Positions 16,980 to 40,896 of a stretch of 64,000 nt of DNA are shown here, one piece after another. The number at the start of each line of letters is the position of its first letter. Position 1 is the first letter of the stretch. The DNA comes from Pedobacter sp. ISL-64 (GTDB taxonomy: Bacteria > Bacteroidota > Bacteroidia > Sphingobacteriales > Sphingobacteriaceae): contig NZ_JAGGPU010000005.1 of the NCBI RefSeq assembly GCF_018613605.1, forward strand, positions 1 to 64,000, in the 5' to 3' direction. The notes below the pieces were generated by a model. It was not told where the DNA came from. It ran no database searches and saw nothing but the letters and a program-made list of their open reading frames with translations. A program made the position numbers and the translations under genes.

Positions 16980-16993
16980 AAAAATATTCTGTA

Positions 16994-22862: not shown

Positions 22863-22911
22863 ATTTGATGTTTTTGACCTTTTTACAGGTGAGATTTATA
22901 AATGGTTAATT

Positions 22912-22919
22912 CAAATATA
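22912..22919 (-). promoter_or_regulatory. Candidate -7 box for the GH97 operon
   Basis: On the minus strand the sequence is TATATTTG, a perfect TAnnTTTG Bacteroidota -7 box 49 bp upstream of the GH97 start. No TTTG is found at the usual 19-21 bp further upstream, so the -33 element is weak or absent, as in activated promoters. Confidence 0.4.
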
Positions 22920-22963
22920 AGGTACAGTAAAAGAACCTCGCAGCTTTCAAAAAAGTTATTGTT

Positions 22964-22999
22964 TTGGGAACGGTCCCAATATTTGGGAACATTCCCAAA
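22964..22999. promoter_or_regulatory. Paired LacI-type operators in the GH97/LacI divergon
   Basis: Two palindromes: TTGGGAACGGTCCCAA (22964-22979) and TTTGGGAACATTCCCAAA (22982-22999, 8-bp perfect arms). Their centres are 19 bp apart. They lie between the divergent GH97 operon and lacI-type gene, so the regulator probably controls both. An almost identical pair with the same spacing is found at 49547-49582. Confidence 0.75.
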
Positions 23000-23078
23000 A
23001 TCCTTTCCCCAATCAATTAATATGTTGTATATTGGAAATAATCAATTTTGTGATTGCATCCTACCAAATATTTTAACG

Positions 23079-24619: not shown

Positions 24620-27463
24620 TTATTTTCCCAATTCCGTTTCTTTGGATCGCGTCAATTTCCCATTGACATCTGTTAATTCCAGGTGAAAACGAACCGCCTT
24701 ATCATTATCAACAGGCACTGTAAATTCAAATGGGTATTCATTTTTATCAATGCTCTTTTCCCTGCTTCCATTGATCTCGTAGACCAACCGGGCCTTCTTC
24801 CATTTGGTATCATCTTCCTGAAGAAATACAAAAAGCTTTTGCGCATAAGTGCCAAGTTTAAACAATAATGCCTTTGCATCTCCTTCAGGGATATTGATAT
24901 AATCACTTCTCCGGTCTTTTTTCACATTCAGGATCTGGTCCTGAAAAGCACTGCTGATTTTTACGCCCTGAATAGCCAGGGCAGTAATGCCGCCGGCAGG
25001 GACATTGATCTGGAAAGTGGCGTCTTTTAAATTTAAAACCTGCATTGATGGATACAAAGTCTGAACTCCAGTACTGCCTGAAAAATCTACCCTTGAAGCA
25101 TCTACAGAAACACGAGTGCTGATATCCTCTTTAGATTGGTTCATAAAAGCAAGTAGAAGTGTATCTCCTTTTTTTGCGCTAACATAGTTTAAAGCAATAT
25201 TAGCCGTGTTCAACAGGCGGGAAGGCATCCAGAGTTGCACATTTTTGAACTGAAAGAACCGACCTTTCTTAGCACCGTAAAACTTATTCTGCAAATAGGC
25301 ATATCCTTCAATATAATCGCTTGGAAAGTCAATCCTGCCACTACTTTTCACATAAGCATCTGAAACCAGGTAATCAACAAACATAGAAGCCATTGGCAGG
25401 ATATGATTGTAATGAAAGGAATTTACACTCTGGTCTTTATGCTCGTGGAGTGGAAAATCGGCCTTTTCATAGGCTGTAGTTCTCTCCGTATTGATATGAT
25501 ATCCCGGAAAACTTTCGGAACGGCCAACAATCGAAGCTTTAGCTACATTCATTAAAAATGGATCATTTGTATGATAGCCTATCCTTAACAACCAAGGTGC
25601 ATAGGTAGACATAAAAATCGCTCTGTGCCCGGTTGAAGTTCCTGATGATTCTGGTGTAAGCCCCATCTCAGAAAGCCTCCATGCAGGCACTTTTTCTTCA
25701 GGATAATACATTTGATGATGTCCTTTTGATTTGAGGTACCAATACATCGGTGCTTTCCCTCCCTTATTTACAGTAACCAGATCACTCGGTATCGCAGGTG
25801 TCATCCAGGTAAATAAGGTGTAATGCCTGGCTCCATCCTGCGCGGCTTCCAAATACCGACGATCGGCAGTAAGTTCATATAACTCCAAAAGTGCTGACCA
25901 GTTATTGGTAAACGTTGGCCAGAAGAAGTTGGAACTAAACAGGGGATCACCAAATTCCTTTAATCTTGTATTTACTCTTTCTTTCAGATATTTATCGGCC
26001 AGGGTCTTGCTTAAACTTAAATAAGCCGAATCGGATGTCAGTTTAAACATAAACATCGCATTGACCCAGTTGCGGCCTTTCTGCTCTTCATCAAGATTCC
26101 TGACACGCGCCGTTCCGAACTCTTTTTTCGCCATCGTAGCGTAAAAGGAGTTGTTACCGCCAAAAACATCAGACAACACCTGTAATTCGGATAATGGCGC
26201 AATAGGTCCCCTCAACTTCCTGGATGGAGATTGAATTTTTTGATTGCTGTCAATCGCAAACAGGAACTTTTCGCGCGACAACATAAACTCCATTAAAGGG
26301 TATGTCCTTTTATCAAACATTTCCTGATCATCCCTCACGATAGCCAGTTCAAGCGGGTTCAGACTTGAAACATTTTTTACTGCGCCAGGTACATCCGTAG
26401 CATAGGCAAAGCCTTTCAGGCTATCGATAAACCAGGCATAACGGGTCTTTGAATAATCAATCAGGTTATCGAGGGTTGTATTCATAGAAACGGTGGCATT
26501 GGTCCGGTAATCCTTAAATCCAAACACAGTTGTTGCGATTTGCTCATATGTTTTAGTGATGCTCAAAGGCTCAACAACAAGGTTCATCGAAAACTCAAAA
26601 GAATGCCCCGCCTTCATCTGAGAATTGAAACCACCTGGCATAGGAGCGAAAACCTGGGGCTGTAATTCTGATTTGTTATTTAAAAGTGCAATTCCGAACT
26701 GGCTGTTGGTTAAAAGCGGTAAAGGTTGAAAAGGCAAATACTTAGAAGCAGCCAGTACGCCTATTGAATTATACCCGTCATTAACCAGTGTAGTAGGGAT
26801 TGTTGCCATAAACGACGGCGTAAGATAGGGTTGCAGGGGAACCCGTTTTTCGGTCCAGATCAGCGGCTGCCATAGTTCATCAACATGATCACTCTTAAAA
26901 GATGGTGCCCCGATATACCCAACACTATAAAAACCGTTCTTTTTAGGTGTAAACAAAAACGCTATTTTAGGATAAGGCAGACTACTTTTAATCAGCCACG
27001 CTTTTAGCGTAAATAAGGCATGCTCCGGAAAGATAAAACGAATAGAATCTCCAGAACTGATTGTTTTGATTGCGGTGAGAAAATGTGTTTTTCCGGCGTG
27101 ATAGATATTGGCTGTTCTATCTTGCTTCGCACTTCTTAATATTTTATCGTCAAATCCATCTCCGGCAACACTGGCACTAACAATTTGCTGGTGATAATCG
27201 GCCAGACTACTGTATGTGGTTTTCCAGGTGGGAATATTGTAAGATACTTTTTTTAATCCTGAAGGTTTCAATGCCAGTTCAGGATCTATATCGTTACAGA
27301 TAACAACAAAATTGGGTTTAAACAGGTAAGTTTTGCCCTTTGATAAGATTTTAAATCCCTGACTATCTTTTACAGTTTGCGCATTCGATTGCATACATAA
27401 ACAACATGCAATTGAAAAGCAAACGAACTTAATATACTTTTTTAGTTTAAAAATCTGTCTCAT
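24620..27463 (-). CDS. Large secreted protein of unknown family, paralogue C of three (candidate glycoside hydrolase/lyase)
   Basis: 947 residues with signal peptide (to about 29, CMQSNAQ). I do not recognise a named family. The predicted plan is an N-terminal beta-rich domain (about 30-330), a long helical part resembling an (alpha/alpha) toroid (about 335-700) and a C-terminal beta part. Motifs shared with the 1136- and 862-residue genes of the operon include W-x-LSEMGL, FMSTYAPWLLRI (about 620), RIDFPSDYI (about 709), a following FYG...G-FFQF...LWM and NYVSA. Its last 90 residues also match the C-terminus of the 1136-residue protein (NEYPFEF versus KQYPYEW). ATGA overlap with the SGNH gene indicates coupled translation; it is the last gene of the operon. 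Polysaccharide cleavage is inferred from context and fold only. Confidence 0.7.
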   Translation of the reverse strand: MRQIFKLKKYIKFVCFSIACCLCMQSNAQTVKDSQGFKILSKGKTYLFKPNFVVICNDIDPELALKPSGLKKVSYNIPTWKTTYSSLADYHQQIVSASVAGDGFDDKILRSAKQDRTANIYHAGKTHFLTAIKTISSGDSIRFIFPEHALFTLKAWLIKSSLPYPKIAFLFTPKKNGFYSVGYIGAPSFKSDHVDELWQPLIWTEKRVPLQPYLTPSFMATIPTTLVNDGYNSIGVLAASKYLPFQPLPLLTNSQFGIALLNNKSELQPQVFAPMPGGFNSQMKAGHSFEFSMNLVVEPLSITKTYEQIATTVFGFKDYRTNATVSMNTTLDNLIDYSKTRYAWFIDSLKGFAYATDVPGAVKNVSSLNPLELAIVRDDQEMFDKRTYPLMEFMLSREKFLFAIDSNQKIQSPSRKLRGPIAPLSELQVLSDVFGGNNSFYATMAKKEFGTARVRNLDEEQKGRNWVNAMFMFKLTSDSAYLSLSKTLADKYLKERVNTRLKEFGDPLFSSNFFWPTFTNNWSALLELYELTADRRYLEAAQDGARHYTLFTWMTPAIPSDLVTVNKGGKAPMYWYLKSKGHHQMYYPEEKVPAWRLSEMGLTPESSGTSTGHRAIFMSTYAPWLLRIGYHTNDPFLMNVAKASIVGRSESFPGYHINTERTTAYEKADFPLHEHKDQSVNSFHYNHILPMASMFVDYLVSDAYVKSSGRIDFPSDYIEGYAYLQNKFYGAKKGRFFQFKNVQLWMPSRLLNTANIALNYVSAKKGDTLLLAFMNQSKEDISTRVSVDASRVDFSGSTGVQTLYPSMQVLNLKDATFQINVPAGGITALAIQGVKISSAFQDQILNVKKDRRSDYINIPEGDAKALLFKLGTYAQKLFVFLQEDDTKWKKARLVYEINGSREKSIDKNEYPFEFTVPVDNDKAVRFHLELTDVNGKLTRSKETELGK

Positions 27464-28869
27464 TTCGATAATGTCCCCCTTAATAAAATCCGGCCTAAAT
27501 AGATCACTGTCTGATCATATTTTTCAGGATGTTGAATAATATCCGCTCTCTTGTCTTCGGGCAGTATCATGAGTTTATCGGCTTTCTGGCCAGACAGGGT
27601 TACCGTTACCAAATGATCCCCCTGCGGTACTTTAATTACATCAAACTGTCCACGGTAGCGATTATAGCAATAGTTGTTGAACCTGTTCAATACATCCGCC
27701 GTAGTTGTATCTTTTGCCTGGTAATAAATAAAATTCCCCTCCTTTTCTCTGCTTAGTTTTACCAGTTTCCCATCTATGTTCCACTCCAGTTGCCCAACCT
27801 CTGGTCCGCCAATATCAAATACACCCAGCATATCTCCCTTAAAACGAAAACTAAATGTGGCCCCGGGCTTATTTGCAGAAAGTACATTAGAAAACCAGGG
27901 ACTGAATTTTTTAAGGTTTGGATCAGTATCTGCTGGTAACACCCTCCAGCCCTTATCAGGAACCGGTAAAGTTGATGGATCTACCATCATTGCCTCGTCC
28001 CATGCAGCAGTAATTAATGGCTTTGGCAGCTCCTTCTTTTTTAAAGGTTTTGCTGCCTCAATTTTTTTAAATGCACGGGCAATGGTGGCCGCATACAGGT
28101 TCCCGCCCGCTGTTGTCGGGTGGATTCCATCCTCAGAAAACAAAATCTTATTCGGATCAGCCTGGTTCCCTTTCCAGATCAGCTTTCTCGCTGCTTCCAG
28201 ACTTGCTGGCTCCACACCTAAATTTACAGAAGGCAGTTCGTAGTGTGCCGCAATCTGCTCCAGCCCCTTGATATTTGGTGGCAAGTCATTTTTTTGATAA
28301 AAGGCAGTTTGCCCAGTTAAAATGGTATACAGCAAACAAATAGCTGTATTGGGGTTCTTTTTGATCGTTTGACGGATCATCCCTTCCATCCCAGCGGCAT
28401 AAGCGCCGTTAACAGCAAATTCTATAAAAATAAGATCGGGCCGATGGCTGAGTACCTGTTCATCGATCCTAAATGCGCCAAGCTCCGTTCCCGTGCCAGA
28501 TACACCTGCGTTGATCCATTGAAAGCTGGCCTGAGGATAGGTTTGCTCTAGGTACTTGGCCGTTTGAAGGCGATAACCAAAATTTGCCTGAGTGATGCTC
28601 CCTCCAATAAAAGCAACCACCACCTTTTTACCCGCATTTACTTTTTCAAAGAAGCCCGGAAGACCTGCCCTAACATTGCATTCCAGCTCATTGTTAAAAT
28701 CACCCGCTTCAATTACAGGGATATTGGATGCAGAAACATCAAAATAAAGAGGAGAAGCCCCTGCCTGGGAGGCCGCAATCTTATCACTATCAGGCCTGGT
28801 TTGAGAAAATGCCGTAACAGACATTAATAAACAAGCAAGCAATGCAGTTTTCACACCTTTTTTATTCAT
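27460..28869 (-). CDS. Secreted SGNH/GDSL hydrolase (putative carbohydrate esterase)
   Basis: 469 residues from the ATG at 28869, where MNKKGVKTALLACLLMSVTAFSQ is a clean signal peptide; this start overlaps the preceding stop by 8 bases. The SGNH serine is Ser91 in VVAFIGGSITQANFG. The Gly and Asn blocks are INAGVSGTG and EFAVNG. The catalytic Asp247 and His250 lie in FSEDGIHPT. A C-terminal beta domain (about 300-469) follows. Likely removes acetyl or another ester from the glycan handled by the operon. It is the only gene here besides SusCD with a recognisable carbohydrate-active fold. Confidence 0.85.
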   Translation of the reverse strand: MNKKGVKTALLACLLMSVTAFSQTRPDSDKIAASQAGASPLYFDVSASNIPVIEAGDFNNELECNVRAGLPGFFEKVNAGKKVVVAFIGGSITQANFGYRLQTAKYLEQTYPQASFQWINAGVSGTGTELGAFRIDEQVLSHRPDLIFIEFAVNGAYAAGMEGMIRQTIKKNPNTAICLLYTILTGQTAFYQKNDLPPNIKGLEQIAAHYELPSVNLGVEPASLEAARKLIWKGNQADPNKILFSEDGIHPTTAGGNLYAATIARAFKKIEAAKPLKKKELPKPLITAAWDEAMMVDPSTLPVPDKGWRVLPADTDPNLKKFSPWFSNVLSANKPGATFSFRFKGDMLGVFDIGGPEVGQLEWNIDGKLVKLSREKEGNFIYYQAKDTTTADVLNRFNNYCYNRYRGQFDVIKVPQGDHLVTVTLSGQKADKLMILPEDKRADIIQHPEKYDQTVIYLGRILLRGTLSK

Positions 28870-31800
28870 TACCATTGAGTACAATCTTTTTTGATTTTGT
28901 TCTCCCATCATTACTCCTAAAAATGAGTTCAAGTTTTGCGTCCTCACCCATCGCCAGTTTGTTAAAACTCCATTCGTAAGGATATTGCTTTATTTCCTGC
29001 GTTTGATTGTTACAATTAACGGTTACGGAATATCCATTTAAAGGAGCCGTTTCTGCAAATCCATAACAGGTATCCCAACCAAAGGGAGAACGGATACGGA
29101 ACAAGAATACGGGTCCCCAGGGAGCCCCCAAATCAATCACCTTCATTCCATCTTTTACCGGCTGATATTTCTTTGCAACGGGAGCCGACTTTAACGGAAT
29201 AGCAATTGCTTTGAATCCTTTTGCAGGAACAACAACGTCAATCTTGGCCGCTTTAAAATCCTGTGAAACTGACTGATCGCTTTGTCCATAAACCAGGGCT
29301 TTCCCATCCATTAGCGCAGCTGTAGCATCAGTCCATTGTACAGCTACTTTTTGCTCAGACTCAGCTTCTGAGGAAAGCAGGATCCAGAAGTTCTTATCCG
29401 AAATTGCAGTAACATAATTGATCCCTGGATTCTGAATATTTACCAGGCCCTTATGCATCCACAGGGTGGCTTCCTGATCTCCAAAGATCTTTCCTTTTCC
29501 GCCGCCGTATACCCGATTGTTAAACCAGACAAATCCTTCCTGTTTGCTATAAGGGAACACTACATTTCCATTCGAACGCTGTATGCTTTCTGAGATCAGG
29601 TAATCGAGGCTAAAAGCGATGTGTGGTGGGATATGGTGATAATAAATGGAACTCACATCCGGCCCTTTATAAGGGAAATCAACCGACATAGGTATATCTG
29701 TAAAACCCGTACCGTAATACCCCGGATAGTTTGTATAACGACCGATCACTGCATTACGGGCATAGGTCTCATAGATAGGTTTGTTCTCGTATTGGAACAA
29801 ACGCAACAAATGGGGCGCCCAGCTACTCATAAATACCGGTCGGACTGTCTGATCTTTTACACGGGTAAAATAAGTACTAGGCTGCTCCAGGCCCAGGCCT
29901 ACTGGCGATACCAGCCATTCAGGCACTTTCTTCTCCTGTACATCTCCATTTTTCCGTGGAAAGCCTAAACGATAAGGCTCGGTGCCTTTCCACCAGATAT
30001 GTGTAACGCCATCATAATGATTATTCTTGTGAATTGTTTGCAGGCTATCTTCCACCTTCGGATAGCTGCGTATCCCCGCAATGGTGAAGTGTGCACCATA
30101 TTCTGCGGCTTTCAGATATTTTTTATCTTTTGTCGTTTCATAGAGATCCAGCAGGTCCCACCAGGGCGCATAAAAACTGGCATTGTAAAAAGGCACATGA
30201 CTCAACACTTTACTGGTATTGTTATATATTTTTTGCTGAATAAAAAGATCTGCATCTTTTTTTGCCTGCTGCAGCCATTTTGCCTGTCCTGTGAGCTGGT
30301 ATGCCCAAAGTGCTTGGTTCCATGAATGGAAATCTGTTGAATAGCCTTTTGCTACCCTTAGGCTATCTTCCGGTAGTGCTATATTTTTCAGCCAGGGATT
30401 CAACCCTCCCAATAAGCGATCCAACCCTACGTAATAAGATGTGGTGAACTGAGAAGTAAACGGGTTGAATTCCAGTGTTTTTCGTGTAGCATTATACGCT
30501 GTTGGAACAATATCGGTTGCCCATCGGTACCCGCTTCTGGAAAGCGTAAATTCTATGGTCGGCAATGACCGGCTGATGTAAAATTCTTCATCATTCTGCA
30601 ATACAGAAAGTGCGATGTTGGCCAATGGTGTGGCATTTACAACTGTAGGTGCTGTTTTAGGGTCGCCTTCAATATCAAAAAAACCTTTTAGCTTAGTTGA
30701 CCATCCCGCAGCATTATCATTTTTCACCAGCTCAATCATGTTGAATACTGCATCAGTAAGCGAAGCTTGTTCTTGTTTTCGATAATCCTTTACCTCAAAC
30801 ACTTCCTTCGATACATAATCCATGGCCGAATCCCAATTGCCCGATTTTACACCAATAATAAATCGTCTGTCAATCAACTCCCCTGCACGGTATTTAGAAT
30901 CTTTCATTCCCAGAATGGGAGAAAACATAACCGGCTGTATCTGGTTATTGTGGTTCTTTAGTGTAAAACCCGCAGGCGCATAATCTACAGAACCCCAGTC
31001 TTTTTTAAATAATTCAGGGCTTGTTGCAACATAACTTGAAACAATATTTTGTCCTGTTTTCGAAGAAACAATAGCCAAGGGTTGCTGCATCATAGCGGTA
31101 ATCATCATTTGCGGACCGTCAGAAAGCCGCTTATACTGAGACATGGGTGCCATCGATACGCTTTCCAGCTCCTGATCGGAAACAGGCTGAAAGGCTTCTA
31201 TCCCCATACTGTAATACCCTGGCTGGGCAACCTTGCAGATCAGCTGCAGATCAATATGTTGCAGCCCTGGATGTAATGTCCACAAACCGGTTATTGCAGA
31301 ACCATTCCTGGTCACATATTGAACTTTTATGGTTTGTTTATCTACAGCTTCTGCAGTTATGGGAATGGCTTCGCTGAGGTTACCGGCCTCAAAAGGATTG
31401 AGATCAGCTCCAGGCTGGTAAACTGCATATTTATTCCCATTAAAAACAAAATATGCTTTTGGTTTTTGGCTGTCCCAGGTTGGATAATATTTATTAAACT
31501 GGATGGAGGCAGCATTAGTACTGATTAAGAAAACCGTATGGTCTTCAATGTTTGCAGTACTTACCTGTTGCCAAGTCCCATCTTTTTTTATTTCTGTTTT
31601 ACAAGCTATAGCCTTGTGGTCAGCTCCCGTTCGTACAAACTGCACACGTACAGCCTCGTTTTCAATTCCTGCAATTACCTTATCCGTCTTGCCCAGTTGA
31701 AGTGCGGGGCTCGTGCTTTTCTTTTCCGCTGTAAGTGTTTCCTGCATAACAGTAAGCTTTTCCCAGGATAAAAGCGTTTTCTTGTCTATATCGTTTGGAT

Positions 31801-32272
31801 TGATGGTGCTGTCCTGCGTAAAAAGAATAGCATCGCAGCGGCCAAAATTAAAATTATGGAGGCGCAACAGCACATCAGCCTCCTTTAGGTCAGCACTTCC
31901 GAGTCGCTCCCAGGCATATCCTGGTTTTCCATGTCCCCCTGCTTTTTTTAACCTGGCATTTCCAACCGAAAGCTGGAATAACCGGGTACCAGGACGTGTA
32001 TCAAAATCGGGTGTCCTTATCCAAATGGCATAACGACCTGCTTTTCCAATACTCATCACTGTTAATGCATCAGATGTACTGTCCTGTTCTCCTTCTAAAA
32101 ACCTTAAAATGCTACCACTAATGCCGTCTTTATTGACTTCATTAAACCATTTGCCTTTAAACTGAAAATCAGTCCCCAGCAGTAGGCTTTTTTCTTGCTG
32201 GGCAATCACAGTTCCTGTTGTTAAAAACAAGAATGCTGTTAATAATAAACGTAGCCTGGTTTTCTGGTACAT
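28862..32272 (-). CDS. Large secreted protein of unknown family, paralogue B of three, with N-terminal CBM-like domain
   Basis: 1136 residues with signal peptide (about 1-24, GTVIAQ). Residues about 30-155 form a beta-sandwich (AGRYAIWIRTPDFDTRPGTRLFQLSVG, GYAWERLGSADL, RLHNFNFGRCDAILFTQD) that closely matches a domain in the GH16 protein of the next operon (YKLWVRSRDFTIGPGTRKFKVILNG). A second beta region (about 190-480), a helical region (about 500-900; DYRKQEQASLTDAVFNMIELV, FMSSWAPHLLRLF near 815) and C-terminal beta domains follow, the last shared with paralogue C. Eight bp separate it from the 862-residue gene. Family not recognised; catalytic residues unknown; a polysaccharide-active enzyme is inferred. 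Confidence 0.7.
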   Translation of the reverse strand: MYQKTRLRLLLTAFLFLTTGTVIAQQEKSLLLGTDFQFKGKWFNEVNKDGISGSILRFLEGEQDSTSDALTVMSIGKAGRYAIWIRTPDFDTRPGTRLFQLSVGNARLKKAGGHGKPGYAWERLGSADLKEADVLLRLHNFNFGRCDAILFTQDSTINPNDIDKKTLLSWEKLTVMQETLTAEKKSTSPALQLGKTDKVIAGIENEAVRVQFVRTGADHKAIACKTEIKKDGTWQQVSTANIEDHTVFLISTNAASIQFNKYYPTWDSQKPKAYFVFNGNKYAVYQPGADLNPFEAGNLSEAIPITAEAVDKQTIKVQYVTRNGSAITGLWTLHPGLQHIDLQLICKVAQPGYYSMGIEAFQPVSDQELESVSMAPMSQYKRLSDGPQMMITAMMQQPLAIVSSKTGQNIVSSYVATSPELFKKDWGSVDYAPAGFTLKNHNNQIQPVMFSPILGMKDSKYRAGELIDRRFIIGVKSGNWDSAMDYVSKEVFEVKDYRKQEQASLTDAVFNMIELVKNDNAAGWSTKLKGFFDIEGDPKTAPTVVNATPLANIALSVLQNDEEFYISRSLPTIEFTLSRSGYRWATDIVPTAYNATRKTLEFNPFTSQFTTSYYVGLDRLLGGLNPWLKNIALPEDSLRVAKGYSTDFHSWNQALWAYQLTGQAKWLQQAKKDADLFIQQKIYNNTSKVLSHVPFYNASFYAPWWDLLDLYETTKDKKYLKAAEYGAHFTIAGIRSYPKVEDSLQTIHKNNHYDGVTHIWWKGTEPYRLGFPRKNGDVQEKKVPEWLVSPVGLGLEQPSTYFTRVKDQTVRPVFMSSWAPHLLRLFQYENKPIYETYARNAVIGRYTNYPGYYGTGFTDIPMSVDFPYKGPDVSSIYYHHIPPHIAFSLDYLISESIQRSNGNVVFPYSKQEGFVWFNNRVYGGGKGKIFGDQEATLWMHKGLVNIQNPGINYVTAISDKNFWILLSSEAESEQKVAVQWTDATAALMDGKALVYGQSDQSVSQDFKAAKIDVVVPAKGFKAIAIPLKSAPVAKKYQPVKDGMKVIDLGAPWGPVFLFRIRSPFGWDTCYGFAETAPLNGYSVTVNCNNQTQEIKQYPYEWSFNKLAMGEDAKLELIFRSNDGRTKSKKIVLNGNE

Positions 32273-32280
32273 GTCTTAAT

Positions 32281-34869
32281 TTATTTATATGTAAATGCAT
32301 AAACCTGGAGACCATAAGGTGCTATTTTTATAGAGTCTCCTGTAGAAAAAGGAATTTTTGAACCCGATGCAGAAAAACATTTGACAGTTTTCATATCCAG
32401 GCTATGTCCTGGAATAAAACTCGACATGTTAAACTGAAAGGTACTTTCCTGTATTTCGTCATCGTTATTCAATACAAACAGGTAAAACACTTTATCCTGC
32501 TTATTCAGGGCGCATACATAATCCATATTGGGATTGTTCAATGAAACCAGTTTCTCCATCAATGTCAGGTCTCCCTGCTTATCAAATATTTTTCCCTGCC
32601 TGAAGCCAAACGTTTTGTGAGGGCCAACCTTAGGCGTAAGAAAGCCTGAAGGAAAATCAATCCGCCCCTGTGAACGCAAAGAAATCTCTGCCATCAGGTA
32701 ATCGGTGATCCAACCCACTTGCCACCAGGCGTGATGAGGAAAAGGCCCGGCTCCCTTGTTCATGGCGCTCCAGTAATAGGAAGCGACTCCTGTGGCTGGG
32801 TCTACAAAAGCATCTTTACTTAAAGCTGCTGTCCTTGCCATTTTAAGGTATAGCGAATCTTTTGTCAGTTGAAATAACCTTACAAACATGCCAGCATGGC
32901 TTGCGAGCATAATGGGGCCGCTGTTATTTGCAGAACCTAAAATCCCTCCATGTTCAAAGCTTAGCCCCACCTGGCTTATTTGCCAGTCTTCCAATTGTCT
33001 CGACCCAACTTTTTTACTTTCTTTATTCGGAATCGGATGAGAATAGATGGAGGTAGTATAGAATTGAGCAGTTTTAATAGCAGCCTGTTTAAATCGTACG
33101 TCCTTTGTAATTTCAAACAGATCGAGCAAAGCCTGGGCACTTTGTCCCGTTGCAAAATCAGGTGCAAACCTGGCATCTCCGCAAACACCTAAAAAGTATC
33201 CTTTATCTACAGCATTTTTGATATACCAGTCTGCCGCTTTTACAGCCGCTTCCAGGTATTTTATATCCCGAAGCGTCTGATATGCAACCAATAATCCGTA
33301 AAAAGTAGGCCTATAATCTTTCAGATCTTCAAACATTGGCTTTTGCGTGTCGTTATGATAAGCTACTTCCCAATAACCTTCTGGTTTCATCTTAGTCAAA
33401 AGCCAGTCGGCCGCCATACGTATACCTGATTTAAGCTGCTGATTATCTGGCTCAAATAAGGACACATTCCCCATATCCAGCAGCATATAATAAGTGGTTG
33501 CGATTGGCTCGGTATAAGGCCCCCACTCTTCGGTAAACCGTTTTGAATTGTAGAGGTAATATTGACCAGCTGCAGCTCCGTGAAAGAAGCCTCCAGCGGT
33601 ATTTTGCTGCGCCAATTTAAAGTTCAATGCATCTTTAAGACGTTTCTGAACCAGAATCGGGTCTTGGGTGATATTCGCCAACATCCACATGGCCCCATAA
33701 TCAGCATTTTTTACGGCGTCTTTTTCCGAGCCGTACACCCCACCCAAATATTCCTGGGCACCGATCGTCCGGCCGTGATAATCGAAAGTCCGCCACCGTG
33801 AAGTACTGTCCTTTTTCACATAGTCTAAAAGCTGCTCCATGCGATCAGATAAGGAAAGCCTGGTTTGCTTTAAATGCAACAGCTCATCAAAGCGGTAAAC
33901 ATCATTTACAACATGCTGATATGCCTGATACCAGCTTGAAGTATTGATGGTGTACCTGAAATCAAAAGAGATGCTTTCGCCCTTTTTTAAATACGACTTG
34001 TTCTGCCCAAGTACCGGATGATATAAGGTTGGGCTCAATTGTTCCTGCCTGTTGATCAGTGACAGGCCAAGCAGCCAGTTTGACTGGGTAGATTTATCAT
34101 ATTCCCATGGATGCCTGGCTGTTCCCGGTTCGGCCGTTACGGCGAGTGTAATTCCATCTCGATTGGTGAGCATGGCAGTCAATGCAGCTGCTGTTCTTTC
34201 TCTTACCACCACCGGTCTATCCGGAATTCCGTGTCCATAAGCATAGGCATCTGTAAAGTTATTGTTGATGGTACTGCCTTGAAACACACCGGGGATGCAG
34301 CCCCATTCAAAACTTTTTTTGTCGTTTGTACTCAATGCCGGAGTTGCTATGGAATAGTATCCATCCCTATCGGCTGTTAAATGAATGGAAACACGTAGAT
34401 CGTTTTTGTAAACAGGATCTAGTTTCCAGATTGCCTTTACAGTAGAGACATCTGTTTTTTGCTGAAAAACGAGTGTATTGCCAACCTGCTTATACTGCTG
34501 TGGATAAAATAAAATGGCACGTCCTTCTTTATTTAAGGAAACCGCAGAGGTATTCGCCTTCCAGGTAGGAATAATATAGCGGTATTCAGGTTCAGGAAAC
34601 TGAATTTCTTTTCCGTTTTTGTCCTTAGCCTCCGAATCCATCCTGGGTTGATCTGCACTGTAAAGCAAGGTATATTGCCCCAATGGGCCCGACAGGGAAT
34701 GCCATCCGTTTTGTCCTTTTACCGACAGCTGTTTTATTTGATATCCCTTACCGGTATCTTCCCAGTTCAGGCGAAGTACATCATTTGTTAATCGGGCTTT
34801 GGGCGCTAACTGGGCATAGCTGCTGTTTGCAAAAGCAAGCAGCAGCACGATTACAGGGTTTAATCTCAT
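32281..34869 (-). CDS. Large secreted protein of unknown family, paralogue A of three
   Basis: 862 residues with signal peptide (MRLNPVIVLLLAFANSSYAQ). N-terminal beta region about 20-320 (YRYIIPTWKANTSAVS; paralogue C has SYNIPTWKTTYS), a helical region about 325-740 with many repeated aromatic helices (DYRPTFYGLLVAYQTLRDIKYLEAAVKAADWYI, GQSAQALLDLFEITKDVRFKQAA) typical of an (alpha/alpha)6 toroid, and a short C-terminal beta domain. Motifs shared with B and C: WQISQVGLSFEHGG, MLASHAGMFVRLF (about 655), GRIDFPSGF (about 735) and NMDYVCAL. It lacks the extra C-terminal domain of B and C. ATGA overlap with the DUF5017 gene. Confidence 0.7.
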   Translation of the reverse strand: MRLNPVIVLLLAFANSSYAQLAPKARLTNDVLRLNWEDTGKGYQIKQLSVKGQNGWHSLSGPLGQYTLLYSADQPRMDSEAKDKNGKEIQFPEPEYRYIIPTWKANTSAVSLNKEGRAILFYPQQYKQVGNTLVFQQKTDVSTVKAIWKLDPVYKNDLRVSIHLTADRDGYYSIATPALSTNDKKSFEWGCIPGVFQGSTINNNFTDAYAYGHGIPDRPVVVRERTAAALTAMLTNRDGITLAVTAEPGTARHPWEYDKSTQSNWLLGLSLINRQEQLSPTLYHPVLGQNKSYLKKGESISFDFRYTINTSSWYQAYQHVVNDVYRFDELLHLKQTRLSLSDRMEQLLDYVKKDSTSRWRTFDYHGRTIGAQEYLGGVYGSEKDAVKNADYGAMWMLANITQDPILVQKRLKDALNFKLAQQNTAGGFFHGAAAGQYYLYNSKRFTEEWGPYTEPIATTYYMLLDMGNVSLFEPDNQQLKSGIRMAADWLLTKMKPEGYWEVAYHNDTQKPMFEDLKDYRPTFYGLLVAYQTLRDIKYLEAAVKAADWYIKNAVDKGYFLGVCGDARFAPDFATGQSAQALLDLFEITKDVRFKQAAIKTAQFYTTSIYSHPIPNKESKKVGSRQLEDWQISQVGLSFEHGGILGSANNSGPIMLASHAGMFVRLFQLTKDSLYLKMARTAALSKDAFVDPATGVASYYWSAMNKGAGPFPHHAWWQVGWITDYLMAEISLRSQGRIDFPSGFLTPKVGPHKTFGFRQGKIFDKQGDLTLMEKLVSLNNPNMDYVCALNKQDKVFYLFVLNNDDEIQESTFQFNMSSFIPGHSLDMKTVKCFSASGSKIPFSTGDSIKIAPYGLQVYAFTYK

Positions 34870-35765
34870 TGGGTAATGGTTAAATCTATTTCTTTTACAA
34901 CTGTAAGTGATCGTTCTACATTGGCATTGGTTGCCACAAACGACACTTTATATACGCCAGCTTTAGTATAAACCCTGGTATAATCTGTTATTTTCTGGGA
35001 AATATTCTTAATAGGTTCCCCTACATCTGGCAAAATACTATTAGGGTTGAACTGTTTGGTTACTACCCAGTCATCATCAAGATCGGTACTGTTCCTCACA
35101 GTAAGCAACTGTGCTGAACTGATACTCCAATTGGTTGCAGGACCACTAAAATTAAAAGCAGTCCAGCCCGCGGTAGCCATAGTGGCCAGTACCGTTTCTT
35201 CTCCCTGCTGATTGGTGCTTTTAAGGTCGAAAGAACGGACTACCCAACGGTTTTGCTGTGCTTCTGGTTTTATAACAGTGGTCTTATAAACCAAAGCCAG
35301 CGCCATATTTTTATTACGCGCGGCAAAAGTGTTCAGGCTGATATTTCCTGAAGGGGTCTGATCCAGGCCGGCAGATAATACTGCTTTATCTGTAATATCT
35401 TCCCAGGTGGCGGCCTTTACATTTGTAGCATCATATATTCCGTTGAAATTGGTAGATACGTACAATTTTATCACCGATTGATCGATGGGCATTAAGCCGA
35501 ACTGGGCATAAGTTTTAAAATTGAGGGAAACCGCATTTCCTTCCACGATCGTTCTTTTCCGGTATTCATATTTGCGTCCGGCTTCTCCCGACCAAAATAC
35601 AATGTTCTCCGGTTTACCATTAATTATAAACCTAACGGGTTCCCCAACTTTATAACTGTTTTTTTCCAACTCAACAGAAAAATCCTCCTGCGGAGCCAGC
35701 TCATAGGTTTTCTGGCAGGAAGCCAGGGAAAATAATATAACAGATGCAATTAATAGCTTATTCAT
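34866..35765 (-). CDS. DUF5017-type surface lipoprotein (SusE/F position)
   Basis: 299 residues starting at the ATG at 35765, giving the lipoprotein signal MNKLLIASVILFSLASCQ with Cys17. An upstream in-frame ATG at 35789 would bury this signal. The N-terminal PKD/Ig-like part (VELEKNSYKVGEPVRFIINGKPENIVFWSGEAGRKYEY) and the WEDITDKAVLSAG and WTAFNFSGP blocks match DUF5017 proteins that follow SusD in many PULs. It probably binds glycan on the cell surface beside SusCD. 17 bp after the SusD stop; overlaps the next gene by 4 bases. Confidence 0.75.
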   Translation of the reverse strand: MNKLLIASVILFSLASCQKTYELAPQEDFSVELEKNSYKVGEPVRFIINGKPENIVFWSGEAGRKYEYRKRTIVEGNAVSLNFKTYAQFGLMPIDQSVIKLYVSTNFNGIYDATNVKAATWEDITDKAVLSAGLDQTPSGNISLNTFAARNKNMALALVYKTTVIKPEAQQNRWVVRSFDLKSTNQQGEETVLATMATAGWTAFNFSGPATNWSISSAQLLTVRNSTDLDDDWVVTKQFNPNSILPDVGEPIKNISQKITDYTRVYTKAGVYKVSFVATNANVERSLTVVKEIDLTITQ

Positions 35766-35782
35766 CTTATACAATTTTGTAG

Positions 35783-37354
35783 TTACCATCCTGTATTTTG
35801 TTTAATATTAGGGTTAACGGCCAGTTCGCTGTTCGGGATGGGGAATAAAACTGCACGATCTGTTACGCGTTGTGCCTGTGCAACAGCTGCGTCTTTTAAA
35901 GCAGTTGGCATGTTGGTTTGGTATTCTCTTGCCTGTGTTTGCATTACGGATGGATAAATACCCCATCGTACAAGATCATGCTTCCGGATGCCCTCGAAAG
36001 CAAGCTCACGTAACCGCTCATTTCTGATCAGATCAAGGAAGTCTTGCTGAGACAAATTAGCGGCAGCATCGGCCGCTACATCAGGGATAAGTACATCTTT
36101 TCCATAGCCCCTTCGCCTCACCATATTTATCGCTTTATACGCATTTGCAGAGGGCCCGTTATTGGTATAATTATCAGCTTCTGCAAACATCAGCAATACA
36201 TCAGCATACCTTAACAGCGGCCAGTTTGTACCAGTATAGTTTTGATTTCTTGGTAAAAGGAGTTCATACTCGCGCCTCCATTTCCCATTACTACGGTCGT
36301 ATACCTGATCTGCTGCCCAATTGGTCCGTACAGCCGTTTGTCCGCTTGTCACATACCGGTAAGGAGCAACTGTCCAGTCCCTTCTCTGATCGCCATTCGC
36401 ATAAGCATTGTAAAGCTTCGCCGTAGCATGAACATAATCATAACCATACCCCATTTCAATATTTCCACAGGTAATGCCGTTATAACTGCCAATCATGCCG
36501 CCCTCTTGTATTTCGCCCTGGTTTACTCCTTTAAATTCTACTTCCCACATACTTTCCTTTGTATCGAAAATCTCCTGAACATGGTTAATATAGATTTGTT
36601 TAAAATCGGGATTAAGGCTGTGCAATCCTGACAGCATTACTTTTTCTGCATAAGTTCTGGCATCAGCATATTTTGCAACATCATTTAGCGGGGAGCCTGC
36701 CATGGTCAGATATACCCTCGCGAGTATACCCTGTACAGTAGTTTTTGTAATACGTGTATTATAGCCATAATCAGAAACGGATTTCACCAGGCCTTCTGCC
36801 TGTTTCATATCAGTAACGATACGTTCGTAAAGGTCCTTTAACGGAGTACCAGGAAGAGGTGGTTCTTCAGGTGATTTACTCGATTGAAGCTTTAAAGGCA
36901 CACCTCCAAACCCATCCGCTAGCAGAAAATAATAGTAAGCCCTTAAAAATAGCGCCTGCCCTTTTATTTCGTTGCGTTTTTCAGCAGTCACCTTATCGGC
37001 CTTATCTATGTTTTCGAGTAACATGTTTGCTCGCTCAATACCCGTGTAAAGCGTTTCCCAATGTCTGTTTAATTCCAGGGTCGAAGCATCTACAATATTG
37101 GCATTCATTCCCGATGTCTGGTTTTTCATGAAAAATTCGTCACTAAAAACCATATAGCAAGACATACCTTGTGAATAAACCCTGTTATCACCCAAACGGT
37201 CGTATACTCCGGCCAATGCAGATTGCAGTTCACTTTCTGTATTGTAATAATTTACTGGCGATACAAAATCCTGTGGGGTTGTATCCAGGATCTTTGAACA
37301 TGAGCTAACAACCAGTGCCAGCATCATCGCGATATATAATAAAGTTGTTTTCAT
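35783..37354 (-). CDS. SusD/RagB-family glycan-binding lipoprotein (first pair)
   Basis: 523 residues from the ATG at 37354 (MKTTLLYIAMMLALVVSSCSK, lipoprotein Cys19); a start four codons upstream is possible. The family blocks are visible: LDTTPQDFVSPVNYYNTESELQSALAGVYDRL, GQALFLRAYYYFLLADGFGGVPL, TKTTVQGILARVYLTMAG, LLRYADVLLMFAEADNYTNNGPSANAYKAINMVRRRGYG and FLDLIRNERLRELAFEGIRKHDLVRWG. It caps the SusC barrel at the outer surface and captures oligosaccharide. The specificity cannot be told from sequence. Confidence 0.93.
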   Translation of the reverse strand: MKTTLLYIAMMLALVVSSCSKILDTTPQDFVSPVNYYNTESELQSALAGVYDRLGDNRVYSQGMSCYMVFSDEFFMKNQTSGMNANIVDASTLELNRHWETLYTGIERANMLLENIDKADKVTAEKRNEIKGQALFLRAYYYFLLADGFGGVPLKLQSSKSPEEPPLPGTPLKDLYERIVTDMKQAEGLVKSVSDYGYNTRITKTTVQGILARVYLTMAGSPLNDVAKYADARTYAEKVMLSGLHSLNPDFKQIYINHVQEIFDTKESMWEVEFKGVNQGEIQEGGMIGSYNGITCGNIEMGYGYDYVHATAKLYNAYANGDQRRDWTVAPYRYVTSGQTAVRTNWAADQVYDRSNGKWRREYELLLPRNQNYTGTNWPLLRYADVLLMFAEADNYTNNGPSANAYKAINMVRRRGYGKDVLIPDVAADAAANLSQQDFLDLIRNERLRELAFEGIRKHDLVRWGIYPSVMQTQAREYQTNMPTALKDAAVAQAQRVTDRAVLFPIPNSELAVNPNIKQNTGW

Positions 37355-37372
37355 TTGTAAAAACATTTATCG

Positions 37373-40300
37373 TTAAAAAGTTAGGTTCATACCAAAGGTG
37401 ATGGTGCGCGCCCTTGGATATGGGCTCCAGTCGAAACCCGGTGTAAGTGCAGAATGGCGCACTGAAACTTCGGGGTCCAAACCGGAATAGTTGGTCCAGG
37501 TTATTAGGTTTTGTGCCGAAACATTAAAGCGGGCTGATTGTATTTTAAGCTTTTTCGTTACCGCAGAAGAAAGGTTATAGCCCAACGAGACCGTCTTTAA
37601 CCGTAGGAAGGAGCCATCTTCTATATTCCTGTCGGAGAACACATTAGGACCATAACCACCGGCTACAGGCAAATCGCTGTTCTGATTTTCCAGAGACCAC
37701 CTGTTCTCGTAGGTTTTAAACATATTCAGACTTGGCCTGGCTTCTGCGCCTTCAAATACAATCCGGTTCGCATTTAGAATGTCATTTCCGTAAGACCATT
37801 GTAAGAAAACATTAAGGTCAAACGGTCCATAAGTGAAATTATTGGAAAAGCCTCCAATGTGTTTCGGATTAGGATTACCAACAATCGTCTGATCATTTGC
37901 ATCTACCACCCCATCTCCGTTAATGTCTTTGTATTTAATGAAGCCAGGCTTAATGAGCGAGCGGGCGCTTCCATTATTCGGTACGTCAGGTCTCAGCTCA
38001 TAGCTACCGTTAGACAATACATTGAAATCACTTAAAGGATACACGCCATCAAAAACATAGCCGTAGAACAAGGCCACAGGCCGTCCTGGTAGGGCTATAT
38101 AAGGTAAAGAGTTATTGAAATTTGCGTTCCAGTTCGAAACACGTGTAATCAAACTAGGCTGATCACCATTCAATTCTTCAATCTTATTGGTATTAAAGGC
38201 AATGTTAAAATTGGACGTCCAGCTAAATTTCTTTGTACTCACATTTATTGTATTTAAGGTAAACTCCAAGCCCCTATTTACCACAACGCCAATATTTTTA
38301 AATGCGGTAAGATACCCCGTTGAAGTAGGTAATGAAGCATTCAGCAATAAGTCTGTAGTTCTTTTATAATAATAATCGGTAGTTAAACTGATGCGCTGCT
38401 TAAAGAAACTTAAGTCTATTCCAAGGTCAAGGTTTCCGGTCCGCTCCCATTTAAGGTTCTCATTTCCCAGCCCAACAGGTACAGTTCCTTTAATATATTG
38501 TCCGTTAAAATAATAGCCACTTCTGGTATTTCCAGTGTTGGCGCCTACTTCCTGATCCAAAATACTCAGGTACGCAAAGTCTGATACGCGGTTGTTTCCG
38601 GTAATTCCGTAAGAAGCCCTTAGTTTTGCAGAAGAAATGGCTTTAACAGATTTCAGGAAATTTTCTTCCCCAATATTCCAGGCAAAGGCCCCGGAAGGGA
38701 AATAACCCACTCTGTTATCACGGGCAAATTTTGAAGATCCATCACTACGGATAGAAGCCGTGAACAGGTAGCGGGAGTTAAACGTATAGTTCACACGCCC
38801 CAGGAAGGACACCAGCGTTGAATAACTACCTGAAGTTGTTTTTACCAAGACCGTACCCTGGTCAAGCCCCCTGACACCCAGTGACTCATTTGGCAATAAA
38901 ATAGATACAAATCCATCCCCCTCCATACTATTTCGCTGCATGGTAAATCCAGCCACTGCATCTAAACGGTGCTTCTTGTTAAATGTCCTGTTAAATGTGA
39001 GCAGGTTCTCGTTCAGCAAACTGCGGATATTTTGATTTTCGAGGGAACCATTAATGCCGTAGCTTTGCCCATAAACGGTCCGCGGATTTCCGGCTGCCGT
39101 ATTAGCGTTGTTAAAGCGCTCAAAAACCAAACGGGTATCCGTCATCCCGCCACTCACCTTGAACTTAAAATATTTCAGGAAAGCATACTCCGCAAAAGCA
39201 TTGGCAGTAAGTGATTTGTTAAAAGCATACTGGTATAAGTTGTTGGAGTTTACTACTGGATTTATCCTTAAATCTGTATTGCCCGCCACATCGTCGTCAA
39301 AAGGCTGATCAAGGAAATTTTCATCATCTGCATTGCCTGTAACAGGCCTGTATCCCCAGGTACTGTACATCAAATATGAGCTGGCGTTTCCGGCCGAGCT
39401 GCTGTTTAGGTTATCACTCGTTAGATTTGCTATCTGACCTTTTTTGATTCCGTATGTATAATTGGTATTAATGCCAATTCTCATATTTTTCCCTAAACGC
39501 TGGTCGATCTGAAAGCGTCCCTGGTATCTCTTATATCCACCATTAATCACAATTCCGTTCTGATCTAAATAAGAACTGCTTATCGAATATTTTGTTGCCG
39601 CAGTGCCACCCCTCATAGAGAAGCTATGATTTTGCATAAATGCATTCTGCAATACATTATCCTGCCAGTTTATCCCGCGCTCATTGCGGTACGCATCTAA
39701 AGTTTTGCCGTCTTTAAGATACAAAGCGGTAGCCGAAGTCTTATTCAAGTCCAGCTGGTATTTCACAAACTCATAAGGGCTCATCACTTCTATCTGCTTT
39801 GACGGATACTGATAGCCCAGCCAATTGTTATAGTTAACTACCGGCGCGCCTACCTTACCTTCCTTGGTCTTGATTATGATCACCCCATTGGCTCCTCTCG
39901 CCCCATAAATTGCGGTAGAAGATGCGTCTTTCAATATATCAATTGATTCAATATCATCCGGATTAATGGTATTGTTGTCGGGATTTTCCAAAGGAAAGCC
40001 ATCAATCACATAAAGGGGTGAGTTAGACTGGGTAATGGAATTTCCTCCGCGAATAGTGATGTTGCTAATACTGCCTGGCTGCCCATCACCAGAACCGACC
40101 TGCACCCCTGCCACCCTTCCTGCCAAAGCATCTTCAAAGGAAACCACTGGTGCCTTTTCCATATCTTTCATCACTACAGAACCAACCGAACCAGTAAGGT
40201 CCTTTCGTTTTACCTGGCCATAACCAACAATTACCACGTCATCTAAAGCAGTGTTGTTAGGTACCAGCTGAATTTTATACTGATTTTGACTGGTGATAAC

Positions 40301-40558
40301 CACAGTTTTGCTGATATAGCCAACCATGGAGACCACCAATAGTTCACTTTCCTTTGTATTAGAAAGGCTAAAGCGGCCCTGATCATCTGTTACACGGGAA
40401 ACTGTTTTCCCCTGGATGACTACTTTTGCACCCGGCAAGGGTTTCCCGGTTTCTTCTGTAACAGTTCCGGTAATGGTTTTTACCGCTTGTGCCAGACAGG
40501 AAAGCGGAACACCCAGAACCAATAGCACCGTTAAGAGTAAGTTTGGTTTCATATTCAT
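37373..40558 (-). CDS. SusC/RagA-family TonB-dependent transporter (first pair)
   Basis: 1061 residues. Signal peptide (to about 24), carboxypeptidase-regulatory-like domain (about 27-105, ITGTVTEETGKPLPGAKVVI), plug with DVVIVGYGQVKRKDLTGSV and the SusC signature NITIRGGNSI...PLYVIDGFPL, then a 22-strand outer-membrane barrel ending ITFGMNLTF with terminal Phe. It imports oligosaccharides with TonB-ExbBD energy. It is the first gene of the seven-gene operon; a good promoter and a tandem operator lie 160-220 bp upstream. Confidence 0.95.
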   Translation of the reverse strand: MNMKPNLLLTVLLVLGVPLSCLAQAVKTITGTVTEETGKPLPGAKVVIQGKTVSRVTDDQGRFSLSNTKESELLVVSMVGYISKTVVITSQNQYKIQLVPNNTALDDVVIVGYGQVKRKDLTGSVGSVVMKDMEKAPVVSFEDALAGRVAGVQVGSGDGQPGSISNITIRGGNSITQSNSPLYVIDGFPLENPDNNTINPDDIESIDILKDASSTAIYGARGANGVIIIKTKEGKVGAPVVNYNNWLGYQYPSKQIEVMSPYEFVKYQLDLNKTSATALYLKDGKTLDAYRNERGINWQDNVLQNAFMQNHSFSMRGGTAATKYSISSSYLDQNGIVINGGYKRYQGRFQIDQRLGKNMRIGINTNYTYGIKKGQIANLTSDNLNSSSAGNASSYLMYSTWGYRPVTGNADDENFLDQPFDDDVAGNTDLRINPVVNSNNLYQYAFNKSLTANAFAEYAFLKYFKFKVSGGMTDTRLVFERFNNANTAAGNPRTVYGQSYGINGSLENQNIRSLLNENLLTFNRTFNKKHRLDAVAGFTMQRNSMEGDGFVSILLPNESLGVRGLDQGTVLVKTTSGSYSTLVSFLGRVNYTFNSRYLFTASIRSDGSSKFARDNRVGYFPSGAFAWNIGEENFLKSVKAISSAKLRASYGITGNNRVSDFAYLSILDQEVGANTGNTRSGYYFNGQYIKGTVPVGLGNENLKWERTGNLDLGIDLSFFKQRISLTTDYYYKRTTDLLLNASLPTSTGYLTAFKNIGVVVNRGLEFTLNTINVSTKKFSWTSNFNIAFNTNKIEELNGDQPSLITRVSNWNANFNNSLPYIALPGRPVALFYGYVFDGVYPLSDFNVLSNGSYELRPDVPNNGSARSLIKPGFIKYKDINGDGVVDANDQTIVGNPNPKHIGGFSNNFTYGPFDLNVFLQWSYGNDILNANRIVFEGAEARPSLNMFKTYENRWSLENQNSDLPVAGGYGPNVFSDRNIEDGSFLRLKTVSLGYNLSSAVTKKLKIQSARFNVSAQNLITWTNYSGLDPEVSVRHSALTPGFDWSPYPRARTITFGMNLTF

Positions 40559-40778: not shown

Positions 40779-40849
40779 GATAAAAAAATAAAAAAAAGCT
40801 CCTTGCACTCAAAATGGAGAGATTATTAAATAATTGTTAGGTGGGCTGG

Positions 40850-40880
40850 TTTGGTTTGTATGGTGTATTAATTACATTTG
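40850..40880 (+). promoter_or_regulatory. Promoter of the GntR regulator gene
   Basis: TTTG at 40850-40853, then 19 bp, then TACATTTG at 40873-40880: a perfect Bacteroidota promoter. The start codon at 40897 is only about 10 bases beyond the expected transcription start, a very short leader. Confidence 0.7.
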
Positions 40881-40896
40881 CCTAAATAATATACCT

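Follow-up and report, generated by a model that had tools for sequence, protein, structure and literature searches.

We examined a seven-gene operon on the minus strand (positions 24620-40558) of a 64,000-nucleotide stretch of the Pedobacter sp. ISL-64 genome (contig NZ_JAGGPU010000005.1, positions 1 to 64,000; hereafter the window), in which a SusC/SusD pair is encoded together with three large proteins of 862, 1136 and 947 residues, here called A862, B1136 and C947. Judged by their sequences, these three proteins are one family with three clades, each built around a predicted helical toroid. The operon runs in the order SusC, SusD, DUF5017, A862, B1136, SGNH, C947 in the list of open reading frames (ORFs), with a regulator diverging from susC:

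37373..40558, minus strand: SusC/RagA TonB-dependent transporter (TIGR04056, 900 bits against a cut-off of 368)
35783..37366, minus strand: SusD-type glycan-binding lipoprotein (PF07980, 1.8e-36; PF14322, 1.7e-29)
34866..35789, minus strand: DUF5017 lipoprotein (PF16409, 5.3e-63)
32281..34869, minus strand: A862, clade-A toroid protein (no family over cut-off; AlphaFold2 model with mean predicted local distance difference test score, pLDDT, of 93.2)
28862..32272, minus strand: B1136, clade-B toroid protein (AlphaFold2 model with mean pLDDT 88.3; VIA structural matches; partial PF07944 match)
27460..28869, minus strand: SGNH/GDSL esterase (PF13472, 1.1e-11; 6hfz, 5.1e-19; sequence motifs)
24620..27463, minus strand: C947, clade-C toroid protein (homology to B1136; clade in the tree)
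40834..41913, plus strand: GntR-type regulator with a sugar-binding domain, divergent from susC (PF00392)

All seven gene positions in the original prediction, an earlier annotation of this DNA, recur in the ORF list, and its identification of SusC, SusD, the DUF5017 lipoprotein and the GDSL/SGNH protein was borne out by hmmscan, each passing its curated cut-off in Pfam/NCBIfam. The tight packing that it described also holds, with spacings from C947 to SusC of -4, -86 (-8 with the ATG start of the SGNH gene), +8, -4, -7 and +6 bases, although the quoted gaps of 8-18 bp are slightly off against a real range of -86/-8 to +8. For the SGNH gene we prefer ATG 28869 over GTG 28947; the ATG yields a signal-peptide-like N-terminus. 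Signal-peptide- or lipoprotein-like N-termini, assessed by eye, are present in six of the seven products when read from the first start codon and in the SGNH protein when read from ATG 28869. The SGNH protein carries GGS, NGA and DGIH motifs, and its match to the GDSL-like protein 6hfz extends over 230 residues, a likeness that concerns the SGNH gene only and does not itself imply a substrate. The DUF5017 lipoprotein is probably a surface glycan-binding protein. With a susC/susD pair, co-directional secreted genes and a regulator, the locus is a polysaccharide utilization locus (PUL).

In hmmscan none of the three large proteins scores above a Pfam or NCBIfam cut-off, which agrees with the original prediction, where they could be placed in no CAZyme family; B1136 gives a borderline partial match to PF07944. 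Novelty was judged against Pfam, NCBIfam and the sequences of the PDB. Single-sequence searches of the PDB with each of the three proteins returned nothing better than E 0.2, single-sequence and profile searches together returned no full-length relative, and the profile searches gave weak toroid matches of the glycoside hydrolase (GH) types GH76 and GH88 (best 5e-4 for clade A and 3.1e-5, to 4mu9, for B/C). Searches of open-licence PubMed Central papers, some of them directed at neighbouring families, brought up no description of these toroid proteins. These results all count against the alternative that the proteins belong to an existing CAZy family which has no matching Pfam, NCBIfam or PDB entry; the presence of the operon in Bacteroides (L089, L090), a well-studied genus, speaks for it, and we regard it as unlikely but deserving of attention.

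Pairwise blastp aligned B1136 with C947 at E = 8e-64 over 710 columns, A862 with B1136 at 7e-33 and A862 with C947 at 5e-22, and hhalign comparison of an A profile (17 rows) with a B+C profile (19 rows) gave 100% probability over 709 columns. Profiles restricted to the toroid scored 98.9% for A/B, 99.7% for A/C and 100% for B/C, against 0.0-0.5% with GH97, GH2, SGNH, SusD and sodium:solute symporter (SSF) profiles. In a tree made from 36 of the 74 aligned rows, clades A, B and C were each split off by a branch with a Shimodaira-Hasegawa-like approximate likelihood ratio test (SH-aLRT) value of 100 and a length of 1.44, 1.2 and 1.05 changes per column, respectively. A genome-wide profile search found three toroid-family proteins in the Pedobacter genome, all of them in this operon. 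The homology evident from blastp, hhalign and the toroid profiles led us to reject three unrelated novel enzymes; the proposal of three candidate new enzymes thus survives as three secreted paralogues outside the searched families, and three separate novelties give way to one family with three clades.

Relatives were gathered by a pattern scan of GTDB genomes, which produced 310 candidate stretches, 296 of them confirmed (a gene may count repeatedly), and 80 named loci were analysed. All confirmed relatives are from Bacteroidota, including Pedobacter, Niabella, Chitinophaga, Sphingobacterium, Spirosoma and Bacteroides, the nearest named ones being Pedobacter at 94-96%. With A862 as the query, 4 of 395 phylum genomes (its own among them) gave full-length relatives and 8 others gave partial toroid matches; B1136 found matches in 20 of 151 same-family genomes, some via its carbohydrate-binding module (CBM)-like domain only.

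Five residues are invariant in 74/74 rows: E639, R664, Y698, H713 and D723 (A862 numbering), equivalent to E796, R824, Y852, H880 and D890 in B1136 and to E605, R627, Y655, H687 and D697 in C947. By conservation they are candidate catalytic residues; E639 falls within a W-x-x-S-x-[VM]-G-L-x-x-E motif, the form that the first shared motif takes in the actual sequences, and H713 stands at the start of the last toroid helix. The shared motifs listed in the original prediction do signal homology, as blastp confirms, but are not distributed as claimed: FMSxxAPxLLR occurs in B and C only and GRIDFP in A and C only. Clade A has further invariant acids (D390, E448, E454, D465, D518, D565 and D571), which except for D465 sit in loops preceding inner helices. 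Clades B and C lack many of these acids, and among three paralogues encoded side by side one might do no more than bind, as would be expected if some or all of the proteins were non-catalytic glycan-binding or scaffold proteins retaining a decayed enzyme fold. The invariance of the E, H, D, R, Y set and the fusion of a GH97 to the toroid in Parapedobacter both argue against such decay, which we consider quite improbable.

AlphaFold2 models were made for A862 from 74 rows and for B1136 from 50 rows, and the fold of C947 was assigned by homology to B1136. On this footing the beta, helical-toroid, beta architecture first read from the sequence holds for all three, and the structure prediction and Foldseek comparison proposed as a check of it found an (alpha/alpha)6 toroid in A862 and B1136. 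The A862 model comprises an N-terminal beta-sandwich (residues ~25-330), the toroid (~338-735, with twelve longer helices between residues 340 and 732) and a C-terminal beta domain; that of B1136 comprises a CBM6/CBM35-like domain (25-155), a beta-sandwich (~195-495), the toroid (~500-900) and C-terminal beta domains. In the VIA lists, where a family's absence does not exclude that family, A862 residues ~20-330 matched GH/mutarotase-type sandwiches (9awt, Z 16.4, root-mean-square deviation (rmsd) 3.1, 233 aligned), and residues 338-735 matched a cellobiose 2-epimerase (9l8i, Z 13.6, rmsd 3.6, 341 aligned) and GH76 (4v1s, Z 12.8, rmsd 4.3, 327 aligned). The B1136 core matched 9ayu (Z 18.3, rmsd 2.9, 231 aligned), and its residues 25-155 matched CBM6/CBM35 domains (3zm8, Z 13.8, rmsd 2.2, 123 aligned). 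Many glycoside hydrolases and phosphorylases, as well as the PL26/PL27 polysaccharide lyases (PLs), are built in the way modeled here, with a mutarotase-type sandwich, a toroid and a C-terminal beta domain in succession. The CBM6/CBM35-like domain of B1136 is also found, at 60 bits, at the N-terminus of the GH16 of a neighboring SusCD locus (46800-49472), and in ~600-residue proteins of other genomes.

The first Foldseek match to A862 was PL27 (E 1.4e-11, TM-scores 0.29/0.34), followed by GH65 (8.0e-11) and, lower, by dextran dextrinase and GH94, and the first match to B1136 was dextran dextrinase (3.1e-10), with PL27 at rank 15 (2.2e-6). The proteins might accordingly constitute a new polysaccharide lyase family, PL27- or PL26-like, acting by beta-elimination next to uronic acid, and the invariant His, Tyr, Arg and Glu could serve a lyase. 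PL27 is represented by the L-rhamnose-alpha-1,4-D-glucuronate lyase BACCELL_00875 (5no8/5nok), a Bacteroides enzyme described as consisting of an N-terminal beta-sandwich and an (alpha/alpha)6 barrel (PMC8377490). A862 has this same pair of domains, in a fold common to many other families. The PL26 exo-rhamnogalacturonan lyases (5xqo, 5xqg) gave the highest-Z VIA rows spanning sandwich and toroid (Z 14.3 for A862 with 5xqo, rmsd 27.2, 536 aligned; Z 16.1 for B1136), but at rmsd values of 25-28 over 483-545 residues, so that the domains are arranged differently, and at 7-10% identity. Against a lyase, GH65 ranks nearly equal to PL27 for A862, dextran dextrinase and alpha-galactosidases precede PL27 for B1136, the PL27 TM-scores are low, and PL27 is ~200 residues shorter; PDB profile searches gave no sequence match to 5no8/5nok up to E 10, and for want of sequence similarity we did not accept PL27 membership. 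Unsaturated-uronyl hydrolases are the usual partners of lyases, and a GH88/GH105 partner was seen in 1/80 co-directional runs of the named loci, in a scan that covered 8 of the 25 singleton partners. Because these partners are nearly absent, we prefer hydrolysis over elimination and rate a lyase family as an unlikely, if substantial, competitor.

Enzymes of the GH65/GH94/GH116/GH52 type match A862 over the whole protein in Foldseek (E 8e-11 to ~1e-6), and none of the 17 clade-A or 19 B/C members tested matched their Pfam models at E 0.1 or better. In the same set and up to the same E-value, PF07470 matched 16/17 clade-A members (best 2.2e-5, 24.1 bits, for the GH97 fusion), PF06662 matched 14/17 (best 3.1e-6), and PF07944 matched 12/17 (best 1.1e-6) together with 10/19 B/C members (best 5.2e-5). 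The best clade-A PF07944 E-values probably pass the cut-off, and the best PF06662 value may do so. PF07944 represents the GH127/GH146 beta-L-arabinofuranosidases, which share the toroid and this partial Pfam match. B1136 scored 22.9 bits in hmmscan and 25.7 bits in the genome search against a cut-off of 24.9, the latter match lying 0.8 bits over the cut-off and covering profile positions 134-227 of 376 only; C947 scored 11.3 bits, A862 gave no match, and a Chitinophaga japonensis clade-A relative (L128) scored 27.1 bits over positions 72-201. The matches seen therefore lie near the cut-off and span as little as a quarter and no more than two-fifths of the model, unlike the full catalytic domain of GH127/GH146. 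These enzymes use a Cys nucleophile and a Cys-rich zinc site, and no conserved Cys set of the GH127 type was found in the three clades, where clade A has C563 only (98%), clade B has C146 in its CBM part (87%) and clade C has none.

In hhalign comparisons with profiles from this same genome, the A toroid scored 93% with GH88 and 90% with GH127, the B toroid 3.4% and 30.7%, and the C toroid 55.5% and 85.0%, respectively, and GH88 and GH127 scored 15.7% with each other. The A/GH88 alignment is shifted in register round the toroid, with A 63-239 placed on GH88 196-376, and A862 scored 17.9 bits with the GH88/GH105 model PF07470, below its cut-off of 26.6. GH88/GH105 enzymes thus share a weak toroid match and differ in the sub-threshold score, the shifted register and the additional beta domains of the toroid family. 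At the level of sequence profiles the hhalign links support a common toroid ancestry with GH88 and GH127, not membership. We rejected GH88 membership on the score and register, and GH127 membership on the cut-offs, partial coverage, shifted register and missing Cys residues, though some relatives pass PF07944 partially.

In the 80 named loci a SusC resembling that of the operon is present in 76, SusD in 74, SSF in 60, DUF5017 in 54, the FAD oxidoreductase in 49 and SGNH in 48; clade B is found in 45, clade C in 19, GH97 in 13 and GH2 in 12, and a relative of the GntR-type regulator in 29. Within the co-directional run holding the A862 relative, GH3 occurs in 17/80, GH92 in 3/80 and GH31-type enzymes in 2/80, and 10/80 runs encode a 477-residue protein remotely like an alpha-galacturonidase model (39 bits against a cut-off of 800). 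A 3-keto-disaccharide hydrolase was present in 5/80 runs and ApbE in 3/80, too rare for use as a hint of oxidised sugars or flavinylation. No separate GH97, GH2, GH16, GH3, GH31 or GH92 gene lies within the flank in 37/80 runs, a count that falls to ~33 after removal of fused or other hydrolase-like genes (L143, L110, L151 with a GH97-A862 fusion, and L125 with GH2- and GH26-like frames). Among unlabelled partner genes, 25 of 42 clusters were scanned with Pfam (17 with at least two members and 8 of 25 singletons) through one member each, the other members being counted through blastp clustering; hydrolase families beyond these six were sought only among the scanned partner genes, and the NCBIfam scan of the relatives' loci covered four partner proteins.

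The fusion in Parapedobacter tibetensis (L061:5220-9605, in the same genome as L151) joins a complete GH97 and a clade-A toroid in one frame of 1461 residues. Other long frames were observed in the relatives' loci. L143:15934-20418 and L110:15991-20508 each hold a single SGNH-GH3 frame of ~1500 residues, with domains confirmed in L143 and deduced from length in L110, and the open frame L125:20200-22592 combines a region resembling family-2 glycosyltransferases/cellulose synthases with one resembling GH26. The L128 protein (L128:9959-14473) bears a ~640-residue C-terminal extension that starts with a CelD_N-like segment under the cut-off, and in Niastella (L136:8324-12595) a symporter and a clade-A toroid share one open frame of 1423 residues, which is either a true fusion or the result of a lost stop codon.

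The scarcity of hydrolases also bears on the alternative that the toroid proteins modify sugars without cutting chains, as epimerase-like or dehydratase-like enzymes. Epimerases of the toroid fold do not have the large sandwich at the N-terminus, and their substrates are free cytoplasmic sugars. The A862 toroid shares the N-acylglucosamine/cellobiose 2-epimerase fold (9l8i), whose Pfam family was not matched up to E 0.1 by the 17 and 19 members, and the clade-A matches to PF06662, the D-glucuronyl C5-epimerase model, point the same way, A862 itself scoring 17.1 bits against 23.3 over 30 residues. A precedent exists in former GH154, for two members of which glucuronate dehydratase activity was demonstrated and whose reclassification was proposed (PMC12269599). 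No GH154 appeared among the PDB sequence matches, in a set not checked for 8OI4. We prefer cleaving over non-cleaving chemistry because ~33-37/80 runs have no common hydrolase within the flank, and the toroid proteins look secreted; non-cleaving activity is in our estimation rather improbable.

Downstream of the operon lies a second gene block, beginning beyond a regulator on the opposite strand:

22902..24092, plus strand: LacI-type regulator separating this block from the operon (PF00356, PF13377)
21018..22862, minus strand: GH97 (PF10566, 1.2e-55)
19009..21012, minus strand: GH2 of the beta-glucuronidase/beta-galactosidase type (PF02836, 5.3e-28)
16994..19006, minus strand: SASA carbohydrate esterase (PF03629, 1e-18)
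14700..17024, minus strand: FAD-dependent oxidoreductase (PF12831, 1.5e-95; linked to the toroid family)
12998..14677, minus strand: sodium:solute symporter (PF00474, 2.3e-46; TIGR00813 over cut-off)
11965..12888, minus strand: DUF4886 protein (PF16227, 1.9e-39; also in 12/80 named loci)

The GH97, GH2, SASA esterase, FAD oxidoreductase and symporter genes (22862-12998) are on the same strand as the operon and start 1.8 kb downstream of it. The statement that no recognisable glycoside hydrolase is present is therefore correct for the seven-gene operon and wrong for the locus, and with GH97 and GH2 downstream we rejected the idea that the wider locus is free of hydrolases. In close relatives such as L083 and L084 the GH97 is placed between SGNH and C947. 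The nearest NCBIfam model to the GH97 is a retaining alpha-galactosidase (203 bits against a cut-off of 800), and the top NCBIfam match of the GH2 is a beta-glucuronidase (225 bits against 544).

Inspection by eye showed no obvious signal peptide on the FAD oxidoreductase. Its likeness to proteins of solved structure is confined to the FAD-binding motif, and NCBIfam gives no assignment. The Pedobacter genome encodes one oxidoreductase of this type (1797 bits, the next 27) and one such symporter (1202 bits, the next 83), and both lie <10 kb from the toroid operon in a genome with at least 56 SusC genes (165 candidates, 56 scored). Among 151 same-family genomes, at thresholds of E <= 1e-20 for the toroid and E <= 1e-100 for the oxidoreductase, toroid proteins are found in 19, the oxidoreductase in 41 and both in 18 (Fisher p 3.5e-11, uncorrected for relatedness). 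The sole toroid genome without the oxidoreductase, G085, is 87% complete, and in 17/18 genomes with both, the genes are on one contig within ~11 kb, those of G025 being on different contigs. Where a genome has clade-C proteins but no clade A (G012, G084, G003), these too adjoin the oxidoreductase and symporter. In the 3.6 Mb genome G012 (L058-L060) there are four clade-C proteins, divided between two loci that each have an oxidoreductase and a symporter of their own.

The oxidoreductase also occurs without toroid proteins in 23 genomes, four of which (G026, G064, G083, G090) have only a ~635-residue relative matched over ~450. In 13 regions (L161-L173) from 12 of these 23 genomes, a symporter relative was present in 10/13, and the ten partner proteins scanned included LacI, SASA, GH53, GH35 and GH115. 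The oxidoreductase and symporter thus look like a module of several PUL types, with the toroid proteins as one regular partner, and given the varied partners in toroid-free regions the oxidoreductase substrate is not tied to one polysaccharide.

Our preferred reading is that A862, B1136 and C947 form an undescribed three-clade family of secreted toroid carbohydrate-active enzymes (CAZymes) that degrades an acetylated heteroglycan together with the SGNH protein and SusCD import, to which we assign a probability of about 0.55. The three are most likely glycoside hydrolases by prediction, and the best reading of the comparisons is a new CAZyme family relative to Pfam, NCBIfam and PDB sequences for which hydrolase activity is predicted as more likely than lyase activity. 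The simplest account of these loci is that the toroid proteins are their missing glycan-cleaving enzymes, a predicted function in which we have moderate confidence. The family itself is real and well defined and not a product of chance; it is a new family of familiar architecture, not a new kind of system.

Several observations weigh against this reading. The top Foldseek match of A862 is a lyase. The registers of the GH88 and GH127 alignments are shifted, and therefore catalytic residues cannot be transferred from those enzymes. Few charged invariants are common to A, B and C, so that the chemistry may differ among the clades or not all may be active. Invariant charged residues are not enriched in the loops before inner helices, whose limits were set by the analyst (A, 17/25, p 0.20; B, 19/26, p 0.20), and we did not take their distribution to prove an active site, although counting every invariant residue, charged or not, does give an enrichment of those loops in A (92/230 versus 38/168, p 1.7e-4) and a borderline one in B (p 0.055). 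Finally, with flanks of <=10 kb round the named loci, and with several of the contigs short, a hydrolase farther out could be missed.

In the order of steps that we would propose for the preferred reading, the SusCD system would bind and import the acetylated heteroglycan, which A862, B1136 and C947 would degrade with the SGNH esterase, A862 acting as the core member while B1136, with its CBM-like domain, and C947 would cleave further linkages. The GH97 and GH2 (elsewhere GH3, GH31 and GH92) would take off common side sugars, and the sodium symporter would take up a released sugar for oxidation by the FAD oxidoreductase in the cytoplasm. By analogy, the likeness of the SGNH protein to 6hfz, which we take to be a CE17-like acetylmannan esterase, and the presence of the SASA esterase suggest an acetylated substrate; the GH2 and GH97 matches, far below their equivalog cut-offs, allow no more than a guess at side chains of uronic acid and alpha-galactose. 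More tentatively still, and with more doubt than confidence, the clades may found a new CAZy family or clan with at least two activities, which would serve a pathway not described so far, freeing a rare or modified sugar in the periplasm for import by the symporter and for processing by FAD oxidation, not by the usual isomerase/kinase route. The substrate of a PUL cannot be assigned while its key enzymes belong to no family. If the toroid proteins are active, a function would follow for dozens of such loci at once, along with a link between polysaccharide breakdown and the recurring FAD oxidoreductase.

Elsewhere in the window, positions 1-4466 encode a large protein with nine MBG_2 repeats and cadherin-like and YDG domains, which extends past the window edge, and at positions 4555-6180 three genes stand in tandem, their products bearing a phage tail collar domain.

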